The notes beneath the pieces are model-generated. The model did no database searches, was not told the DNA's origin, and was given only the letters and a program-made list of their open reading frames with translations. A stretch of 64,000 bases of DNA from a virus. Shown here one piece after another: positions 1-35,547 of the stretch; position 1 is the first letter of the stretch, and the number at the start of each line of letters is the position of its first letter. The DNA lies in the IMG/VR virus record IMGVR_UViG_3300045972_000071, positions 1 to 64,000 of that record; one strand, 5' to 3'. The position numbers and the translations under genes are program-made.

Positions 1-496
1 CGCCGAGAACGATCTGTTGTTTCGGCCAGTTAAAGAATTTCCATAGTTGTATCAGACAAGCGACAAGTGACTTACCTTCTCCACGCATCCATGACAAGAT
101 AATTAGCTTGTATACGAATCGCCCGTTAACCATTCGCAATGCTTGACGCATGACGGTCTTTTGCTCTTGCCAGATATTATCGTAAGACTTGCCGGACTTC
201 GGATGTATGTCCGTTGACAAGTCTTTGATACGTGTCCAGATTGTAATATCTGAACCCTCTGGATATACGGGAATTGAAACCTTATCCTCGCACCATTTTA
301 TGAATCCCTCTGGACCATCTCTATAGTCTATCGGTTCATAAATCTCATAAGGTGCAAGTTTGTACGGGTCATATAATTCAGGATCATATACCTCTGCGGC
401 AGTGATAGTTGCAAGAGCATCATCGGGTGATTGTTCCTCTAAATCTTCTTCCTCTACAATGTCGGCTACTTTACGCCTTGCAATAATTGTTGCCAT
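1..496 (-). CDS. terL: Terminase large subunit, N-terminal part (cut by window edge)
   Basis: ATPase motor that packages DNA into the prohead and cuts it. Only the first 165 codons are inside the window. I translated it by hand from an ATG at 494-496, preceded by AAAGGAAAAG. The N-terminal 100 residues are acidic linker. Near residue 135 comes LSWMRGEGKSLVA, a terminase Walker A variant, followed by a W-FFNWPKQQIVLG segment typical of the large-terminase ATPase domain. The catalytic Walker B and nuclease domain lie outside the window. It follows the probable TerS gene on the same strand after a 160-nt gap holding a structured element. Confidence 0.85.
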   Translation of the reverse strand, partial: MATIIARRKVADIVEEEDLEEQSPDDALATITAAEVYDPELYDPYKLAPYEIYEPIDYRDGPEGFIKWCEDKVSIPVYPEGSDITIWTRIKDLSTDIHPKSGKSYDNIWQEQKTVMRQALRMVNGRFVYKLIILSWMRGEGKSLVACLIQLWKFFNWPKQQIVLG

Positions 497-537
497 AGTT
501 TTCTTTTCCTTTACATCCGAGGATGCGTAGCACGTAA

Positions 538-642
538 GATAGTAAAGAGCCTCTCCTTTACTATCTATTGTTTGCTTTTATCTTCTTATCTTTTACGTGA
601 CAGGTTTCAGTCGGTCTAGTGTGACTGGAATCAGTGCTACTG
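538..642 (-). other. Structured element copy A (candidate origin or packaging-site element)
   Basis: The minus strand of this terS-terL gap matches the plus strand at 19616-19723. The first 56 nt have only two mismatches (642-587 against 19616-19671). The similarity then decays but ends in a hairpin at 538-565: stem GATAGTAAAG/CTTTACTATC, 8-nt loop. In the other copy the stem is GATGATAAAG/CTTTATCATC, so two base pairs have changed on both sides and pairing is kept. Arms CACGTAAAAGAT and ATCTTACGTG flank the hairpin here. What it does is inference: replication origin, packaging recognition site or recombination scar. Confidence 0.6.
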
Positions 643-15951: not shown

Positions 15952-17321
15952 AACCTGTTTATACAATAACAATACATAACCCAGTGGAAGCGTCTTGCAC
16001 TGCGGTTCTTGCGGGGCTGATAAAGCCCTGCATATCATTCCCTACATCATTCTGGGTGCAAGGACCATTCAAGAAGGTTCGCAAAGAGTCCACAAAGTCA
16101 ATGCTCACTAAAGGTAAAGGAAGCATGTATTACTTCTGGGCTGGACTGCTTGACAGAGTTCTGGAGCATTGTGCCGAGAATGGTATTGAGGTAGAAGTTG
16201 TTGATAAAGCGTATGAAGAGTTTAATATCTATGAACCCGAACTACCAGGAATTACCTTCCGTCCAGATCAGGCGTCACTTATCAACTCATTTCTTGATAA
16301 ACCTAGGGGCATTCTCGAATCGTTCACAGGCAGTGGTAAGACTGTGCTTGGTTTTGGCTGTCTGTCTGCATTTCCGGACTATAGAGCGTTATGGTTGTGC
16401 CACACTAAAGGACTAATGCAACAAGCCTATGACGAAGCATGTAAGTTCGGATTCAAAAGTGTGGGGCGTGTCGGGGATGGGCATTCAGAATATACCAAGG
16501 ATATCACTATTGCCACGCGGCAGAGTTTTAAACGACTTGCCGATGAGTTTGGTCATGAGTATGACATAGTTGTGGTGGATGAAGTACACCATGTTGCTGA
16601 TTTAAAGTCAGAATATGCCTATGTACTTGCCCGAGTACCTGCCCCCATTCGATTAGGACTGTCTGCTACTCTTCACAAAGAGGGCACAGAAGCATGGTAC
16701 ACGTCAGTAGGACTACTAGGTCCGATACTCCAATCATTGTCGATCAATGACGGTGCTGAACTTGGCATCTTAGCCACACCGACTATCAGAATTTTACGTT
16801 GTCCTAAAGATCACGAAGTATCAGCCATGAAGATGTATTCCCATGTATATTCTGCTGGGGTTGTAAATAACCTTTACATGAATAACCTGATAGCCGTAAC
16901 TGCTAAGAAACACTCCGATGCCAATGAAACCGTACTGATAATGATTAATCAGATTGAGCATGGGGAGAACATACAAAGATTGCTTGACGCTTTGCATGTA
17001 AAGAACATCTTTATACGAGGAGCCACGAAATCAGAAGTACGGGATGATACAAAACATGCTCTGAATCGTCACGAAATCAATGTTGTTATATGTTCCTCAG
17101 TATGGACAGAGGGAATAAACATTCCTACTCTCCAAGTTGTTATCAACGCAGCTGGTGGCAAAGATGAAAAGGCTGTATTGCAGAAAGTAGGGCGTGGTCT
17201 GAGAAAGACCGCAGAGAAAGACTCCGTAATTATTTATGACACGTTCAATGTATCACATAGGTATCTGATTGAACACTTCGGGGAGCGTCTATGTATTTAC
17301 CTAGATAATAATTGGCTATAA
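15948..17321 (+). CDS. Superfamily 2 DNA helicase (UvsW-like)
   Basis: 457 residues. An N-terminal accessory region (1-110), then FRPDQASLI, motif I SFTGSGKT near 130, motif II VVVDEVHH near 210, motif III LGLSATL near 242, motif V/VI VWTEGINIP and QKVGRGLRKT. The layout matches phage UvsW and RecG-like branch-processing helicases, expected to remodel forks or recombination intermediates. Start overlaps the previous stop (ATGA). An HNH cassette separates it from the primase. Confidence 0.9.
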   Translation: MKPVYTITIHNPVEASCTAVLAGLIKPCISFPTSFWVQGPFKKVRKESTKSMLTKGKGSMYYFWAGLLDRVLEHCAENGIEVEVVDKAYEEFNIYEPELPGITFRPDQASLINSFLDKPRGILESFTGSGKTVLGFGCLSAFPDYRALWLCHTKGLMQQAYDEACKFGFKSVGRVGDGHSEYTKDITIATRQSFKRLADEFGHEYDIVVVDEVHHVADLKSEYAYVLARVPAPIRLGLSATLHKEGTEAWYTSVGLLGPILQSLSINDGAELGILATPTIRILRCPKDHEVSAMKMYSHVYSAGVVNNLYMNNLIAVTAKKHSDANETVLIMINQIEHGENIQRLLDALHVKNIFIRGATKSEVRDDTKHALNRHEINVVICSSVWTEGINIPTLQVVINAAGGKDEKAVLQKVGRGLRKTAEKDSVIIYDTFNVSHRYLIEHFGERLCIYLDNNWL

Positions 17322-17381: not shown

Positions 17382-17388
17382 AGTGATT

Positions 17389-18012
17389 ATGAAAATTAAA
17401 AGGCGAATGATTGGTAAACGATTTGGCAGATGGATAATAGATTCATTACATAATCTAGCCCCAGGTAAAAAGTGGAACTGTATATGTGATTGTGGTACAG
17501 AGAAATCCGTTTACGAATATTCTCTTAAAAATGGTAGTTCCCAATCTTGTGGGTGTCTAACAAGGGATAGATCCATTGAAACTCATTCAACACATAATGG
17601 AACTTATAAACCAGAATACAGGGTGTGGGCGGCAATGAAGTCAAGATGTAGTAATCCAAAAGATTTATCCTTTCATAATTATGGAGGTAGAGGGATCAAA
17701 GTGTGTGAGTCATGGTTATCTTTTGAAAATTTCTATACAGATATGGGTCCATGTCCTAAAGGGCTTGAACTTGACAGGATTAATAATGACGGCAATTATG
17801 AACCTGGTAATTGTGAGTGGGTTACTAAATCAGCTAACGACAGGAACCGCAGAAATACACTTATGCTAACCTTAAATGGGGTAACTAAAGCGATGAAAAC
17901 TTGGTCTGAGGAATATGGTATTCCCCATCACACTGTTAGGTACAGAATAAAACGAGGATGGGAACCAAATCTAGCACTCACCATAAAAGTAGGTGAAAAG
18001 TATGAAGCATAA
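17389..18012 (+). CDS. HNH homing endonuclease with N-terminal zinc ribbon
   Basis: 207 residues from ATG 17389 (AAGGAG). N-terminal CICDCG ... SCGCL zinc ribbon at about 31-57, then YRVWAAMKSRC, GIKVCESWLSFENFYTDMG and LDRINNDGNYEPGNCEW, the same core as the nuclease at 11520, then a NUMOD-type C-terminus. Its last codons overlap the primase start. Unlike the other insertions, I found no duplicated gene end here. Confidence 0.85.
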   Translation: MKIKRRMIGKRFGRWIIDSLHNLAPGKKWNCICDCGTEKSVYEYSLKNGSSQSCGCLTRDRSIETHSTHNGTYKPEYRVWAAMKSRCSNPKDLSFHNYGGRGIKVCESWLSFENFYTDMGPCPKGLELDRINNDGNYEPGNCEWVTKSANDRNRRNTLMLTLNGVTKAMKTWSEEYGIPHHTVRYRIKRGWEPNLALTIKVGEKYEA

Positions 18013-18934
18013 AACCTCAGATATAGATTTGGATATGATTTCAGCGGTAGATTTCTTAGAGGATCGTGGTGTGGACTACATGACTGCCGGCAATAAGAAC
18101 ATCTCTGCAGGATGGATTGGTTTAAGTTGCCCCTGGTGTGGAGATCACAGTACACATTTAGGAATATCCTTAGAAACTAATTTAGTTAGTTGCTTTCGTT
18201 GTGGTAAGAAAGGTTCTGTAATCCACTTAATCCAACAAATAGATTCGTGTTCGATGTCAAAAGCCGAGTCCACTGCTCTTAAATTTGTATCAACGGACTT
18301 CTCCCATCTGATAAAGAAGGAAAGAAAACATGCAGAAACGACACTATACCCCACTGGTACTGGTGATACTTTTTTACCTATACATGATAATTTCCTTGCT
18401 AGGCGTAGATATGACCGAAAGTTTATACAGCAAAGGTATGATATTTTGGCTGTGGGGCCTACTTGTGATGACTGGAAGTTTCGTATTATTATACCGATCT
18501 TCCTCGACGGTGAATTAGTTTCTTATGTAGGTAGAGACTGTACCGACAAAGCTGATATCAAGTACAAGAATGTGCCAGCGGAACGATGCACACGCCAAGT
18601 CAAAGACTGTGTTTATGGTATTGACACTCTGAAACAAGGTGGGGTTGGTATCATCGTAGAAGGTGTATTTGATGCGTGGAGATTAGGGAAATATGCCTTG
18701 CCTACATTCGGAACCCAGTACACTACAAATCAGCTGGCCCTCGTTGCAAGAAAGAAGCTGTCAAAACTATACGTTTGTTTCGACCAAGACGCTCACACGA
18801 AAGGTGACGAGCTTGCACATACGGTTTCAAGTGTATGTAATGACGTAGAATTGATATTACTTGACGAGGGAGACCCCGACGACTTGACGGAAGACGAGGT
18901 TTGGGAACTACGTAGGGAGTTAAACCTAAAATGA
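18002..18934 (+). CDS. DnaG-like DNA primase
   Basis: 310 residues. N-terminal zinc-binding domain with CPWCGDH and CFRCGKKG (about 39-62). The TOPRIM domain carries GVGIIVEGVFDAWRLG (acidic Glu) and VCFDQDAH (D-x-D). It lacks the C-terminal helicase-interacting domain of bacterial DnaG, as is usual in phages with a separate helicase. ATG 18002 with AGGTG is the likely start, overlapping the HNH gene. Makes RNA primers with the DnaB-like helicase encoded at 21386. Confidence 0.9.
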   Translation: MKHKTSDIDLDMISAVDFLEDRGVDYMTAGNKNISAGWIGLSCPWCGDHSTHLGISLETNLVSCFRCGKKGSVIHLIQQIDSCSMSKAESTALKFVSTDFSHLIKKERKHAETTLYPTGTGDTFLPIHDNFLARRRYDRKFIQQRYDILAVGPTCDDWKFRIIIPIFLDGELVSYVGRDCTDKADIKYKNVPAERCTRQVKDCVYGIDTLKQGGVGIIVEGVFDAWRLGKYALPTFGTQYTTNQLALVARKKLSKLYVCFDQDAHTKGDELAHTVSSVCNDVELILLDEGDPDDLTEDEVWELRRELNLK

Positions 18935-19071: not shown

Positions 19072-19100
19072 TTGACATCAATTTTATTAGCTGTTATCTT
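19072..19100 (+). promoter_or_regulatory. Strong sigma70-like promoter
   Basis: TTGACA, 17 nt, TATCTT. The best match to consensus in the window; expected start near 19107. Confidence 0.75.
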
Positions 19101-19106
19101 ATCACT

Positions 19107-19247
19107 AGAATTTACACCACATACAGAGTGGTTACATAAACAGAGTGTCTTGACGGAACACAATGTTATACAAGGATTCGGTGAGTGTGTCTGTGTCACC
19201 TCACGAAACGACCCCTTTAGACCGTCAATCTAAAGGGGTTTCTTTTT
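19107..19247 (+). ncRNA. Candidate small RNA or attenuator leader
   Basis: The interval between the strong promoter and a perfect terminator would give an RNA of about 140 nt. It contains CCAC...GTGG and GTGAG...CTCAC arms and no frame with a ribosome site before the terminator. It could act in trans or attenuate the initiator gene that begins 18 nt later. Confidence 0.45.
19211..19247 (+). terminator. Strong intrinsic terminator
   Basis: ACCCCTTTAGA/TCTAAAGGGGT, 7-nt loop, TTCTTTTT. Confidence 0.9.
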
Positions 19248-19265
19248 GGTTAAAAGGAGTGAGTG

Positions 19266-20597
19266 ATGGACGATGCAATTCTATACAGATTATTTCTTCA
19301 AGAGGGGTGGTGGCAAACATCCCGATCGGTAGCCGAATTATATGATGATTTTGAAACTGCCGGGGTATTTGCAGAATTGGTCAGTACACGCCACTTATCT
19401 GAGAAGAAAGGCATTCTTGTAGATGATTGGTTTACAACCACATATACAGAGATGGCTAAAAGTACATTCATATCCGAAAATAAAATAGGACAATGTATAC
19501 GTGCTTTTATGAAAGATGAACTACTGGAAACAAAGCGTGTGGGTATTCCTTCTAAGTGTTTTTATCGCCTAAATATGCAAAATTTGATACGGGCATTAGA
19601 ATCAACAGCAAAACGCAGTAGCACTGATTCCAGTCGTACTAGACCGACTGAAACCTGTCACGTAAAAGATAAAGAAGAGAAAAGCAAAGAAGAAGATGAT
19701 AAAGGAAAAGACTCTTTATCATCTAAGGAACCCACTGACGTGGATTCCCCTAAGGTAGTAATAAAGAGAAGAACGGTACAACCTAGCTTGTTCCCTAATG
19801 ACAATGTGAAGAGGTTGTTCTTACATTGGAATAATCTAGGTTCCCACATTGCAAAGCATCTGCTAGACCCATCAACCAAAATATTTCATAGATCCGTTCT
19901 TGCAATCGAAAAAGCATTGCGACACAATACTCCAGATAATATAGCATCTGCTATGGATAATTACAGCAACCTTCTTGCAGATCAAAACACTACGATGTTC
20001 TGGCCTACTCAAAGTGGACGTCCAGGTCTCATTGTGAGTCTTGAGGAATTCTTCAAGTTTTCGGACTACACCGAAGAACGTATGCTGAAAGCAAAAGAGG
20101 TAAATATTCCTGACTCATGGTATAAGTGTTGCTTGCAGGATTATGACATCATTGCTACAGAGTACGGTAAGTATGACAGGGATGATAATCCAAAGATTAC
20201 CGAAGCTATAAAGAAGGCATATACATCAGCAGTTCCCGCGGCTAAAATAACAGTGACCGACACAAACTTTTTTATAAGGTCTGCAAAATTTGTGTTACAG
20301 TATCACATGACGAATAAAAACAAGATCAATTGGAATAGTTGTCTACTGGAAAAGAACAATCCTGCATTGTTTGCACATCGACTGATAGCCGCTATATTAG
20401 AAGATTGCCAAGACAGAACGATGATTACATCAAGTTGGTTGTTCTCCGATAGAACAAAAACTATTCGTCTACCTAAGTACATGAAAAAACACGGACTACT
20501 GACATCTGATGAAATCACGTATAAAGCACCCATCAGACCGTTACAAACTAAAAAGAAAGGATATGATCCAGGCTACAAAGACGGAGAAATCGAATAA
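19266..20597 (+). CDS. Candidate replication initiator or helicase-loader protein
   Basis: 443 residues from ATG 19266 (AAAAGGAG). The N-terminal 115 residues look like a winged helix of phage replication proteins (FTTTYTEMAKSTFISENKIG, then FMKDELLETKRVG). A low-complexity linker (about 118-165, rich in Ser, Thr, Lys, Glu) follows, then a helical C-terminal domain with HWNNLG and HLLDPSTKIFHRSVLAIEKAL. Like lambda O, the linker DNA carries a repeated structured element that may be an origin. It lies between primase and helicase genes, which supports the role; the exact family is not recognised. Confidence 0.6.
   Translation: MDDAILYRLFLQEGWWQTSRSVAELYDDFETAGVFAELVSTRHLSEKKGILVDDWFTTTYTEMAKSTFISENKIGQCIRAFMKDELLETKRVGIPSKCFYRLNMQNLIRALESTAKRSSTDSSRTRPTETCHVKDKEEKSKEEDDKGKDSLSSKEPTDVDSPKVVIKRRTVQPSLFPNDNVKRLFLHWNNLGSHIAKHLLDPSTKIFHRSVLAIEKALRHNTPDNIASAMDNYSNLLADQNTTMFWPTQSGRPGLIVSLEEFFKFSDYTEERMLKAKEVNIPDSWYKCCLQDYDIIATEYGKYDRDDNPKITEAIKKAYTSAVPAAKITVTDTNFFIRSAKFVLQYHMTNKNKINWNSCLLEKNNPALFAHRLIAAILEDCQDRTMITSSWLFSDRTKTIRLPKYMKKHGLLTSDEITYKAPIRPLQTKKKGYDPGYKDGEIE
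19616..19723 (+). other. Structured element copy B inside the initiator gene
   Basis: Matches the terS-terL gap in inverted orientation (642-538). Holds an internal CAGTCG/CGACTG hairpin and a terminal 10-bp hairpin GATGATAAAG (19695-19704)/CTTTATCATC (19714-19723). The codons here encode a disordered linker, leaving the DNA free to serve as a site. Confidence 0.6.
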
Positions 20598-21177: not shown

Positions 21178-21417
21178 ATGATAGAACTGTTTGTATGGCT
21201 CATTGTTGGATTCATAATAGGTTTGGCTTCTTCTGCTGTAGTTTGGTTCAACATATACACAAAATGGAAAGCATCGGAAAGAGCCATTTATTATATTACC
21301 AAACGATACAATACAAGATCCATACAAGTAGCTGTTTTAAGAAATCAGTTGGAAAATAAAAAATTGCCCACTTCAAAGGATTCTTATGGCAAAGTTTGTT
21401 CGGAAGGATGTAAGTAA
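21178..21417 (+). CDS. Small single-pass membrane protein
   Basis: 79 residues; helix FVWLIVGFIIGLASSAVVWF at the N-terminus, charged cytoplasmic or periplasmic tail. Lies 4 nt after the transglycosylase stop and overlaps the helicase start by 32 nt. May be a partner of the transglycosylase, spanin-like in topology but without clear features. Confidence 0.55.
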   Translation: MIELFVWLIVGFIIGLASSAVVWFNIYTKWKASERAIYYITKRYNTRSIQVAVLRNQLENKKLPTSKDSYGKVCSEGCK

Positions 21418-22903
21418 CACCATTGAGAACAACATCATTACAGCGGCAATCATTTCGACAAACTTTATTGAGGAAATCTATCCTCTCTATACAAAACAGT
21501 ATATCAAGAATAAGTTCGGTCAGACACTACTAGGGTGGTGTATAGATTATTTTGATAAGTTCGGTGAAGCCCCCAGAAAGAATATCCAGACAATTTTTGA
21601 ATTAGAAAAAGAAACTCTGGATGAAGCCGATGCTGAAATCATCACAATCTTTCTCAAAACGCTCTCTAAAAACTATGTGGACGATCAAGGAATCAACGAG
21701 GAGTACGTTTTAGATCAAGCAATGCAATACTTTCGTAAGAGAGAAGTTGAAATGAGGGTAGAGAACGCCCAGAAACTTCTTGATGTGGGAAAGATTGAAG
21801 CCGCAGAAGATGAAATCTTCAAAATGAAGAAGGTAGTCCGTCTGACATCTAATTGGAGCAATCCAATGGATGACCATAAGATACATGAGGTGTTTGATGA
21901 TAGTAAGAAAGGCATACTACGTTTCCCGGGGGCTTTGGGCAGTCTACTCGGTGACCTCGAACGGGGATGGTTTATCGCATTTCTTGCTCCGTTTAAACGA
22001 GGAAAGACGTGGCTTCTACAAGAAGCAGTTGTTATTGCCGCCTTATCTAATCTCAAGGCAGTTTTCATTTCGCTGGAGATGCAAGACAAGAACATCAACG
22101 AACGATTGTACAAGAGGATTACCGCTTATGGAGATGAAGGTAAGACCGATCACGCAGTACCAGTCTTTGATTGTGTCCGAAATCAAACAGGAGTGTGCGA
22201 AAAGCCGATCAGGAAGAATAAGTTCATTCTATACGACGGTGAGGGTGATCTACCTGAGTTTGAAGCTGATATGGAATATCGTCCGTGTTGCGTATGCAAA
22301 GACATAAAGAAAGAACAAGAGGACTACGAACTTTCTACTTGGTTTGAACTGATGATTAAACCAGAGTTTACTGCTAGGAACGTAAACAAGAAACTTAAAT
22401 CCTTTAAACGCTTTTATGGTGACAACATACGGACAAAATGTTATCCTAGATTTTCTGCTACCGTAGCAGACATCAGGCGTGATCTGGATATACTTGAGCA
22501 GACAGAGGGATTCATTCCTGATGTTATCTCAATCGACTTTGCAGGCATTGTTAAACCCGATACACGTGGTGGGGATATTCGTAACGGCATTGATGATATC
22601 TGGAAATCATTAGCAGCACTTGCAATGGAACGTCACGCTGTTCTATTCTCAGCGTCCCAAGGAAACAGGGGTTCACTTTACAAAGACAACATGGATCAAG
22701 CCGATATTGCAGAATGGATTGGCATACTTGGTCATGTTGACGGGTTCGTATCTGTCAATCAGAGCGCAACAGAGAAGAAACGTGGTGTCATGCGTCTAGG
22801 TCTACTTGCCCATAGACACAAAGAGTTTCACGAGAAAGATCATACCATGATTTTACAAAACTTGTCACTCGGTCAAGTACATCTGGATTCACACCGTATG
22901 TGA
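21386..22903 (+). CDS. DnaB-like replicative helicase
   Basis: 505 residues. N-terminal helical domain (1-150), then a RecA-type core: GWFIAFLAPFKRGKT (Walker A variant, about 195-208), VFISLEM, DVISIDFAGIVK (Walker B region, about 375-390), and the C-terminal ASQGNRGSL and LAHRHKEFH motifs of DnaB/gp41-type helicases. Unusual is an insertion at about 262-310 with two cysteine pairs (CVRNQTGVC, CCVC) that could bind zinc. Expected 5'-3' hexameric helicase working with the primase. Confidence 0.8.
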   Translation: MAKFVRKDVSNTIENNIITAAIISTNFIEEIYPLYTKQYIKNKFGQTLLGWCIDYFDKFGEAPRKNIQTIFELEKETLDEADAEIITIFLKTLSKNYVDDQGINEEYVLDQAMQYFRKREVEMRVENAQKLLDVGKIEAAEDEIFKMKKVVRLTSNWSNPMDDHKIHEVFDDSKKGILRFPGALGSLLGDLERGWFIAFLAPFKRGKTWLLQEAVVIAALSNLKAVFISLEMQDKNINERLYKRITAYGDEGKTDHAVPVFDCVRNQTGVCEKPIRKNKFILYDGEGDLPEFEADMEYRPCCVCKDIKKEQEDYELSTWFELMIKPEFTARNVNKKLKSFKRFYGDNIRTKCYPRFSATVADIRRDLDILEQTEGFIPDVISIDFAGIVKPDTRGGDIRNGIDDIWKSLAALAMERHAVLFSASQGNRGSLYKDNMDQADIAEWIGILGHVDGFVSVNQSATEKKRGVMRLGLLAHRHKEFHEKDHTMILQNLSLGQVHLDSHRM

Positions 22904-32914: not shown

Positions 32915-35547
32915 TGGCAAAGGTGAGAGCATTCTTCGATGATGATGAACTTGACTCCGTAGGTATAAACGGGGCTGGAAGCGGTGCATGTGAGAAGTGT
33001 GGTTTAGTTTCAGGATGCAAGACACCTATGATGGGCTATACAGGTGAGGGGAAGAAGAGAATCCTCATCGTTGCAGAAGCCCCAAGCGAAGCAGAAGATA
33101 GAAGCGGTAAGCCGTTCACAGGTGACACAGGTAAATGGTTTGCTGAAAAGTTACGCAATAAAGGTATTGACATTGATACTGATTGCTGGAAAACTAACTC
33201 TGTCGGCTGTCACCCCACTAATCAGAAGGATTGCAAACCCACAAAAGCACAAGTCAAGCATTGTCGTCCACGTGTTATGCGTACTATCGCAGAACTTAAA
33301 CCTAAGTATATATGGTTAATGGGTTCCGATGCCATCTATTCTTACTTCCATGAAAGAGAAAATAATACAAATGTTGATAGATGGAGAGGGCTGTGCATTC
33401 CTGATGTTGAAAAGAAAGCATGGATCATTCCATTGTATCATCCTGCTTATGCTTTAAAGTTAGAAAAAGACGACCATTTTCAATCTACATACGACAGGGA
33501 TTTATCTCATGCCATCCGATGCTCTAAATTTGCAGACCTCCCAGAAGAAATGTCCCTCAAAGGGGCAAAGATCCTCAAGACTTATGAAGAGACCGTTGCC
33601 GCACTCGAAAGAGTATTGGATGAACGTCCGGATAGGTTCGCTTTCGATTATGAGACCACGGGTCTCAAACCCTATCGCTCAGGCCACAGAATAGCTACGG
33701 CATCCTTCTGCTCTGATTATGATACCGCTTATGCATTCCCGTATCAGTATCGTAAGCATTGGGATAATAATCAGCTTACACGAATCGGTGATCTATGGTG
33801 TGATATCATGGAGCATCAAAAAATCAAGAAGATAATGCACAACCAGAAGTTTGAAGATATGTGGACACGTGAAATTATGGGTGTTGACATTGCAAACAAA
33901 TGGTGGTGCTCAATGAACACCGCACATATTCTTGATGGTAGAACAGAGTTCTCAGGTCTTAAATTCCAATCTTTAATTCGTTGGGGAATACCTGACTATG
34001 ATTCTGAGATTGAAAAGTATCTGAAATCCCCTGATAAAAGCACACCATACAACAGGGTCATGGAAGCACCGCTGAATGACTTATTGCTGTATAATGCCAT
34101 TGATAGTCTGCTTACATTCAGATTACAAGAGGAGCAAGAAGATGAACTGGTAAAACTACCTAGTCAAGACAAAGCACGAAACTTCTTTCAGGGAGGGTTG
34201 AACACCTTATGTAACTTGCAAGAGAACGGTATCCCTCTCAATCGTCAATACTACTTGGATCAAGATATTGAGATAGGTAGCAGAATATTGAAGGCAAAAG
34301 AGTCTTTGCACAACTTTGATGAAGCAAAGCGTTTTCTCCGTGATAAAGGACGTGTCATAAACTTCGGCTCCTCTGATGATCTTGTCGAACTGTTCTTCAA
34401 CGTCATGCAACTTCCGAAAGGGAAACTTACCCCGGGGGGTAAACCGTGTGTTGATGCAGGAGTGCTTGCTACGCTTAATACGCCCATTGCAAAAGAGATT
34501 ACCAAGATTTCAAAATTAGAGAAGATCAAGGGAACGTACCTGGGTCAGTTTAATCGGGAGATAGAAGATGATGGAAAACTTCATCCGTTTTTTGATTTGC
34601 ACACAACAAATACTTACCGTGGTTCTTCTTCTTCACCCAACTTTCAGAACATACCAGTGCGAGATTTTGAGGCGATGTCGATCACTCGGGGTGGGATTAT
34701 TCCTTCTTTGGGTAATCAATTGGTTGATTGGGATTACGGTTCTATGGAAGTTAGAATCATTGCCTGTGTTACGCAAGATCCTGTTTTAATGAGGTATATT
34801 GAAGATTCTACTTCTGATATGCATAGAGACCAAGCAAAAGATTGGTTCTCTTTCACTGATGCAGAATGGGCGACTATCGACAAGAAACTGGCAAAAGCTG
34901 TCCGATTTGAATCAAAGAATGGATTCGTCTTTGCTGAGTTTTACGGATCATACTACGGCTCTATTGCCCGAACTATGTTCCCTAAGCTGAAAGAACTTTC
35001 TATCGGTGAAACTAATCTGTTTGAACATCTACGCAGTAAGGGTGTAATTCGATCACTCAGCACTGCCGCTGATGATTTTGAGAATCACACCAAGAGAGTT
35101 GAGCAAAGATTCTGGAATAAGTTTAAAGCGGTAAAAAAGTGGCAAGAGAAAGCATTTGCATCCTATCTTGAAAAAGGATACATCGAACAGATGTTTGGAT
35201 TCCGATGCGGGGGTTGGTTATCTAAGAATGATATATGCAACTACCCCATTCAGGGAACAGCATTCCACTGTCTAGTATGGTCACTAGGACAACTTGACAA
35301 GCGAATGAAAGACGAACGTATGGACTCTTTGCTAATAGGGCAGATCCACGATTGCTGTCTTGGAGATATCACCGTAGATGAACACGATCATTGGTGCCAC
35401 ATGTCTCACAAGATAGCGACACAAGAGATTCGGGAAGCATTCAAGTGGATAATCGTACCTTTAGATATCGAATTTGAAGAGTCTGGAATCAATGAACCGT
35501 GGAGCGTGAAAAAAGAATTTATGCCAAAGTTTTTAAATCATAGGTAG
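32914..35547 (+). CDS. Family A DNA polymerase fused to UDG-like domain
   Basis: 877 residues. About 20-200: uracil-DNA-glycosylase superfamily domain with CEKCGLVSGCKTP, ILIVAEAPSEAEDRSGKPF, NSVGCHP and LYHPAYALK. About 230-430: 3'-5' exonuclease with FAFDYETTGLKP. About 560-860: polymerase with motif A DWDYGSMEVRIIA, motif B KNGFVFAEFYGS and motif C GQIHDCC. A UDG-like N-terminus is also known in the SPO1 polymerase; whether it excises uracil or only binds is unknown. Main replicative polymerase. Confidence 0.92.
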   Translation: MAKVRAFFDDDELDSVGINGAGSGACEKCGLVSGCKTPMMGYTGEGKKRILIVAEAPSEAEDRSGKPFTGDTGKWFAEKLRNKGIDIDTDCWKTNSVGCHPTNQKDCKPTKAQVKHCRPRVMRTIAELKPKYIWLMGSDAIYSYFHERENNTNVDRWRGLCIPDVEKKAWIIPLYHPAYALKLEKDDHFQSTYDRDLSHAIRCSKFADLPEEMSLKGAKILKTYEETVAALERVLDERPDRFAFDYETTGLKPYRSGHRIATASFCSDYDTAYAFPYQYRKHWDNNQLTRIGDLWCDIMEHQKIKKIMHNQKFEDMWTREIMGVDIANKWWCSMNTAHILDGRTEFSGLKFQSLIRWGIPDYDSEIEKYLKSPDKSTPYNRVMEAPLNDLLLYNAIDSLLTFRLQEEQEDELVKLPSQDKARNFFQGGLNTLCNLQENGIPLNRQYYLDQDIEIGSRILKAKESLHNFDEAKRFLRDKGRVINFGSSDDLVELFFNVMQLPKGKLTPGGKPCVDAGVLATLNTPIAKEITKISKLEKIKGTYLGQFNREIEDDGKLHPFFDLHTTNTYRGSSSSPNFQNIPVRDFEAMSITRGGIIPSLGNQLVDWDYGSMEVRIIACVTQDPVLMRYIEDSTSDMHRDQAKDWFSFTDAEWATIDKKLAKAVRFESKNGFVFAEFYGSYYGSIARTMFPKLKELSIGETNLFEHLRSKGVIRSLSTAADDFENHTKRVEQRFWNKFKAVKKWQEKAFASYLEKGYIEQMFGFRCGGWLSKNDICNYPIQGTAFHCLVWSLGQLDKRMKDERMDSLLIGQIHDCCLGDITVDEHDHWCHMSHKIATQEIREAFKWIIVPLDIEFEESGINEPWSVKKEFMPKFLNHR

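Follow-up and report, generated by a model that had tools for sequence, protein, structure and literature searches.

Why would a phage keep the same structured DNA element at two places, once within the gene for its replication initiator and once among its packaging genes? The question is raised by IMG/VR virus record IMGVR_UViG_3300045972_000071, the first 64,000 nucleotides (nt) of which make up the window analyzed here. Copy 1 of the element (19616-19724, plus strand) falls within the codons for the linker of an O-like initiator (gene at 19263-20597, plus strand), and copy 2 (537-642, minus strand) lies in the gap separating the presumed small terminase gene terS (657-1232) from the large terminase gene terL (from 496 down past position 1). 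The original prediction had located two inverted copies at these places, both of which are confirmed here with refined edges, and had offered an origin, a second origin, or a pac-linked signal as their role. The comparative evidence points to both copies being recognition/initiation sites of the phage's own O-like initiator, with the gap copy acting as a second origin-like site, likely late in infection; a probability of roughly 0.7 is attached to this reading.

The two copies align over 73 nt at 94.5% identity (123 bits, E 1e-30 in a self-search of the whole 87,617-base record), and no third copy was found in the same search. The predicted stretch of 56 nt with two mismatches is found as the first 55 nt, with the mismatch count unchanged. 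Copy 2 lies ~19 kb from copy 1 in the opposite map orientation, yet both are on the coding strand of their own operon and thus point in the same direction relative to transcription. Because the ends of the record overlap at 123/124 nt and terL runs on across position 1 into the record end, the genome is circular or circularly permuted, with a length of ~87.5 kb. From a common control region, the early genes extend to the right and the packaging genes to the left.

Each copy comprises, in the same order, (i) two 12-bp imperfect palindromes, (ii) an A/purine-rich tract, and (iii) a hairpin. The palindromes ACTGATTCCAGT (ACTG-4-CAGT) and ACTGAAACCTGT are spaced exactly 24 bp apart and are designated as iterons 1 and 2; they occupy 19623-19634 and 19647-19658 on the plus strand in copy 1, and 624-635 and 600-611 on the minus strand in copy 2. 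The tract that follows (19664-19693 in copy 1, 567-594 in copy 2) is the presumed unwinding region. The hairpin of copy 1 is AGATGATAAAG-9 nt-CTTTATCATCT (19694-19724, plus strand) with the loop GAAAAGACT, and that of copy 2 is AGATAGTAAAG-8 nt-CTTTACTATCT (566-537 on the minus strand) with the loop GAGAGGCT. A 10-bp hairpin had been expected in each; both are present with perfect 11-bp stems, and the sequence bears out the further claim that the stems differ at two neighboring pairs, each of which is compensated.

Judged by its parts, this layout is that of an in-gene (lambda-type) origin to which a hairpin has been added. Repeats lie within the initiator coding sequence, and 24-bp repeats are also present in two related initiator loci (L123 and L127). 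An A+T-rich tract adjoins the repeats, and A/purine-rich tracts of the same kind occur in L122, L123, L127, L005, and L006. The host gene is O-like on account of its PHROG matches and its winged-helix fold. The protein, with an N-terminal winged helix, a disordered linker, and a C-terminal domain common to relatives, matches the O-like/DnaD-like PHROG families 428, 186, and 9773 weakly by itself (~1e-4), and its relatives do so strongly, at up to 2.5e-16. Single-sequence folding of the N-terminal domain was poor; a three-sequence alignment gave a usable model of the first 128 residues as a winged helix, with a predicted local distance difference test (pLDDT) score of 79. The distant fold matches of this model include the replication initiators 4pql, 4pt7, and 5kbj (E 0.003 to 0.009).

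Relatives were collected from viral contigs by a TerL search (62 loci) and by DnaB alignment (54 loci with a replication module). The four terS-terL gaps closest by TerL, i.e., that of the window and those of L005, L006, and L007, whose TerL proteins are 74-79% identical to the window's, all hold repeats, a purine-rich tract, and a hairpin, although their sequences differ. L007 and L005 share GTAGTCGA-4-TCGACA. A scan of viral contigs with the gap motif of L007 led to the initiator linker codons of contig 3300000228_000019. This contig and the one carrying the gap, 3300000228_000010, belong to one metagenome. An overlap of 5,722 bp (100% identity) joins them at one end and one of ~742 bp (94%) at the other; they hence represent one circular genome of ~85 kb, designated as phage B. 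Its initiator linker and its own terS-terL gap are identical at 36/36 nt (TTCCGTAGTCGAAAAATCGACACTACAAACATATAA, E 1e-12), and this sequence is unrelated to the window element. This finding is the strongest piece of evidence. The repeats and layout of the in-gene origin recur at the second site in both the window pair and the phage B pair, and the two phages have in common a pairing of two places within each genome rather than one inherited sequence.

No close relative was found in viral contigs by initiator protein or by exact element sequence, no phage GenBank record was recovered by initiator, TerS, or TerL, and no partner initiator contig for L006 was present among 79 pattern matches. The genome collection searched by TerL returned only two distant metagenome-assembled genome contigs, with no reliable host. 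In some relatives, the terS-terL gap holds extra reading frames (a 196-residue frame at 8735-9326 in L006 and several in L008/G004), which mark it as a site of gene gain.

The sequence of the element follows the DNA-binding domain of the initiator. The initiators of the window and of phage B share 45% identity in their C-terminal parts, and their N-terminal domains are unrelated; that of phage B instead resembles the domain of L123 (41%), in the linker of which two copies of GGTCGTGATCGAAAAATCGAC, 24 bp apart, are accompanied by a purine tract and a hairpin. The type-B N-terminal domain was found in two initiators, those of L122, which is the same genome as L007, and of L123. Among the loci fetched up to that comparison, TCGA-4-TCGA with an AAAA/TTTT middle occurs in the linkers of L122 and L123 and in the gaps of L005 and L007, and elsewhere only once (L205), apparently by chance. 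On this distribution, the phage B motif TCGAAAAATCGA goes with the N-terminal domain of the initiator and not with terS. The link is limited to close members and does not extend to the whole domain class, because L301-L303 have a related type-B domain (32-35%) with other palindromic repeats in the linker and no TCGA-4-TCGA. Given the different pair of phage B at the same two places, the gap sequence must probably match the initiator protein.

Several observations weigh against an origin function at both sites. Nine records from more distant relatives (G004, G028, G034, G052, G054, G056, G057, G063, and G064), each with both TerL and an initiator, have no second copy detectable by sequence, in a search that would miss bare 12-bp sites; the second copy is therefore not essential to the family and, as far as can be seen, is a trait of the close clade. 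The original prediction had taken single-copy relatives as the mark of a recombination relic: the distant relatives are of this kind, and the close clade is not. The matched-pair test covers two genomes, i.e., the window phage and phage B. In phage B, strict copying is limited to the iteron part and the gap has its own, non-homologous hairpin. Finally, GC skew tracks gene orientation, is confounded by it, and is not decisive.

The alternative that survives best is an operator, in which the initiator would bind the terS-terL gap only to control transcription of the late operon, such that expression of the packaging motor follows replication, with no replication function at this site. Initiators often double as repressors, the gap copy sits directly upstream of terL, and strict copying in phage B is confined to the iterons. 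However, in each of the four close-clade gaps the iterons come with a purine-rich tract and a hairpin, which exceeds the needs of an operator, and no promoter match was found inside the gap. A pure operator is accordingly unlikely, and a replication role is preferred because the gap copy retains both tract and hairpin.

A packaging signal of the pac/cos type, recognized by terminase and with the in-gene copy secondary, was also among the roles first proposed, and its appeal lies in position, as the element is located in the terS-terL gap and terS itself or its vicinity is a frequent place for pac sites. An element of this kind should follow the specificity of TerS, yet the two similarities disagree: the TerS proteins of L005 and L006 are the most alike (68.6%) and their gap elements are unrelated, while L005 and L007 share the gap motif with TerS proteins only 56.5% alike. 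Together with the association of the motif with the initiator N-terminal domain and the nine distant records that hold both genes and no second copy, this leaves the pac-linked role disfavored and highly improbable.

Folding as single-stranded DNA gives z scores of -4.3 for copy 1 and -3.9 for copy 2, with 0/200 shuffles as good. Against codon shuffles, i.e., codon-permuted genes that keep the protein and codon usage, the in-gene hairpin of the window has p = 0.01. The longest perfect stem has a mean length of 9.25 bp across 28 initiator genes, compared to 6.79 bp in the codon shuffles, and p ≤ 0.05 is reached in 14/28, as opposed to 2/24 primase and 2/28 dnaB genes next to them. The hairpins of relatives lie mostly in the linker region and have unrelated stems. 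The original prediction had regarded the compensated stem as evidence of a selected structure. Two copies alone do not discriminate selection from palindrome self-correction, which could keep a stem paired; selection is nevertheless the better reading because hairpins with unrelated stems recur at the same place in many phages, and self-correction would not put one at the linker in so many lineages.

Two further features of the linker hairpins were observed. The loop GAAAAGACT (19705-19713 in the window, also in the L122 linker, and as AAAAAGACT in the linker of G004) is kept in three initiator genes, although the stems around it are unrelated. Its codons specify KDS, but it may serve as a signal in the DNA, for example for priming. 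Large imperfect palindromes of ~85 to 128 nt, 70-80% self-complementary, are present in the initiator genes of distant relatives (64105-64229 in G028, 33116-33221 in G054, and 16836-16920 in G052) and are possibly enlarged linker hairpins.

A functionless relic of recent duplication or recombination, maintained by gene conversion between the inverted copies and with its hairpin kept paired by self-correction during replication, would account for copies that are near-identical within a genome and unrelated between genomes, as well as for distant relatives without a second copy. It would not be expected to reappear in the same gap at each exchange of the initiator domain, and the phage B lineage holds a copy of unrelated sequence at the same two places, with two further gaps of the same layout; a relic is thus highly improbable. 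An RNA element controlling translation or processing of the terS-terL and initiator messengers is barely credible, since the sense orientation of both copies in their operons and the stable hairpin are offset by the lack of an Rfam match, by conserved repeats that are short palindromic motifs of DNA type, by a TerL start that lies ~40 nt past the hairpin and unpaired in it, and by a sense strand without a T-run after the hairpin. No intrinsic terminator was recognized at the hairpin either; the sole match is on the opposite strand, with 3 G-C of 11 pairs, and does not exceed the shuffle expectation.

An origin with a second origin, the first of the proposed roles, is thus well supported by comparison, through the recurrence of the linker layout in the family and the matched, unrelated pair of phage B. 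Under this reading, the following steps are envisaged. Copy 1 would be the primary origin, where the N-terminal winged-helix domain would bind the 12-bp palindromic iterons spaced 24 bp apart, the A/purine-rich tract beside them would open, and the phage DnaB-like helicase would be loaded. The downstream hairpin would assist, perhaps by forming a single-strand structure at which helicase or primase enters. The gap copy would be bound by the same initiator in the manner of SPP1 oriR, most likely late, and would provide either a second start or a block to forks, formed by the bound initiator, that switches replication to concatemer synthesis next to the packaging genes. Copy 2 may thus act as a start or as a fork stop, or else in late-transcription control.

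SPP1 has repeats and an AT-rich DNA unwinding element (DUE) both at oriL, which lies within gene 38, and at oriR, ~12-13 kb away. The repeats of both sites are bound by gp38, and it is believed that forks are blocked by G38P at oriR and that concatemer synthesis is thereby triggered (PMC6316719, PMC3485210). The window phage resembles SPP1 in having direct repeats and an AT-rich region inside the initiator gene and a similar second site far off (12-13 kb in SPP1, 19 kb here). It differs in the place of the second site, which is the terS-terL gap, and in the opposite map orientation of that site. In addition, a hairpin closes each element, a primase is encoded by the phage itself, and initiator binding is here a prediction; the likeness is one of plan, and no kinship is claimed. 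The origin of lambda, within gene O, consists of imperfect inverted-repeat iterons followed by an A+T-rich tract (PMC7466680, PMC5043065), which is also the arrangement in the O-like initiator gene of the window. However, the window has two 12-bp iterons 24 bp apart, as opposed to four of ~19 bp in lambda, as well as a strong downstream hairpin, a second copy elsewhere, and a phage-encoded DnaB-like helicase. With an SPP1-type pac site at terS, the element shares its location near the terminase genes, and it differs in going with the initiator DNA-binding domain instead of TerS. Two-origin phages are already known; what is new is the terS-terL place, the exchange of both copies as a matched set between close phages, and the conservation of a hairpin. 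The open literature held nothing closer than SPP1 to this arrangement, in a search largely outside subscription journals.

The genes around the two sites are those of replication and packaging modules. The initiator gene is flanked upstream by a DnaG-like primase (17993-18934, plus strand; phrog_47, 1.6e-39) and on its other side by a DnaB-like replicative helicase (21386-22903, plus strand; phrog_19, 3.3e-34). On the packaging side, terL is supported by phrog_9 (5.8e-11), with its 5′ part at 1-496 (minus strand) and the rest at the end of the circular record. The presumed TerS (minus strand) has no family match in PHROG, Pfam, or NCBIfam and is named from its position and because relatives conserve it beside terL. 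Primase and initiator are separated by a structured leader (19113-19262 in the window, 3920-4068 in L122, 4700-4848 in L145, and 4420-4565 in L151). In the window, it contains a terminator-like hairpin (19210-19240) ~20 nt before the initiator start and is preceded by a promoter-like site (19072-19100); the leaders of the three relatives have different structures of equal or greater strength. The leader may be an attenuator of initiator expression. An HNH endonuclease gene (17383-18012) lies between a helicase gene and the primase, and HNH genes from staphylococcal phages show small matches to it in DNA.

The switch from circle-to-circle replication to concatemers, and the reason for having two origins, are known largely from SPP1, and an uncultured phage group for which no kinship to SPP1 is claimed has the same two-site plan. 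The sequence of its second site appears tied to the initiator, as two lineages with unrelated elements keep matched pairs at the same two loci. In addition, the swapped N-terminal domains of this family and the 12-bp sites that match them form a natural series, which could serve to read out the specificity of initiators. The family also suggests a connection of the second origin with packaging that can be put to the test. It is possible, if short of an even chance, that the lineage keeps an initiator-matched second origin beside the packaging genes and rebuilds it with a new sequence at each exchange of the initiator DNA-binding domain and in-gene origin. If so, replication mode and packaging would be physically coupled at one place.
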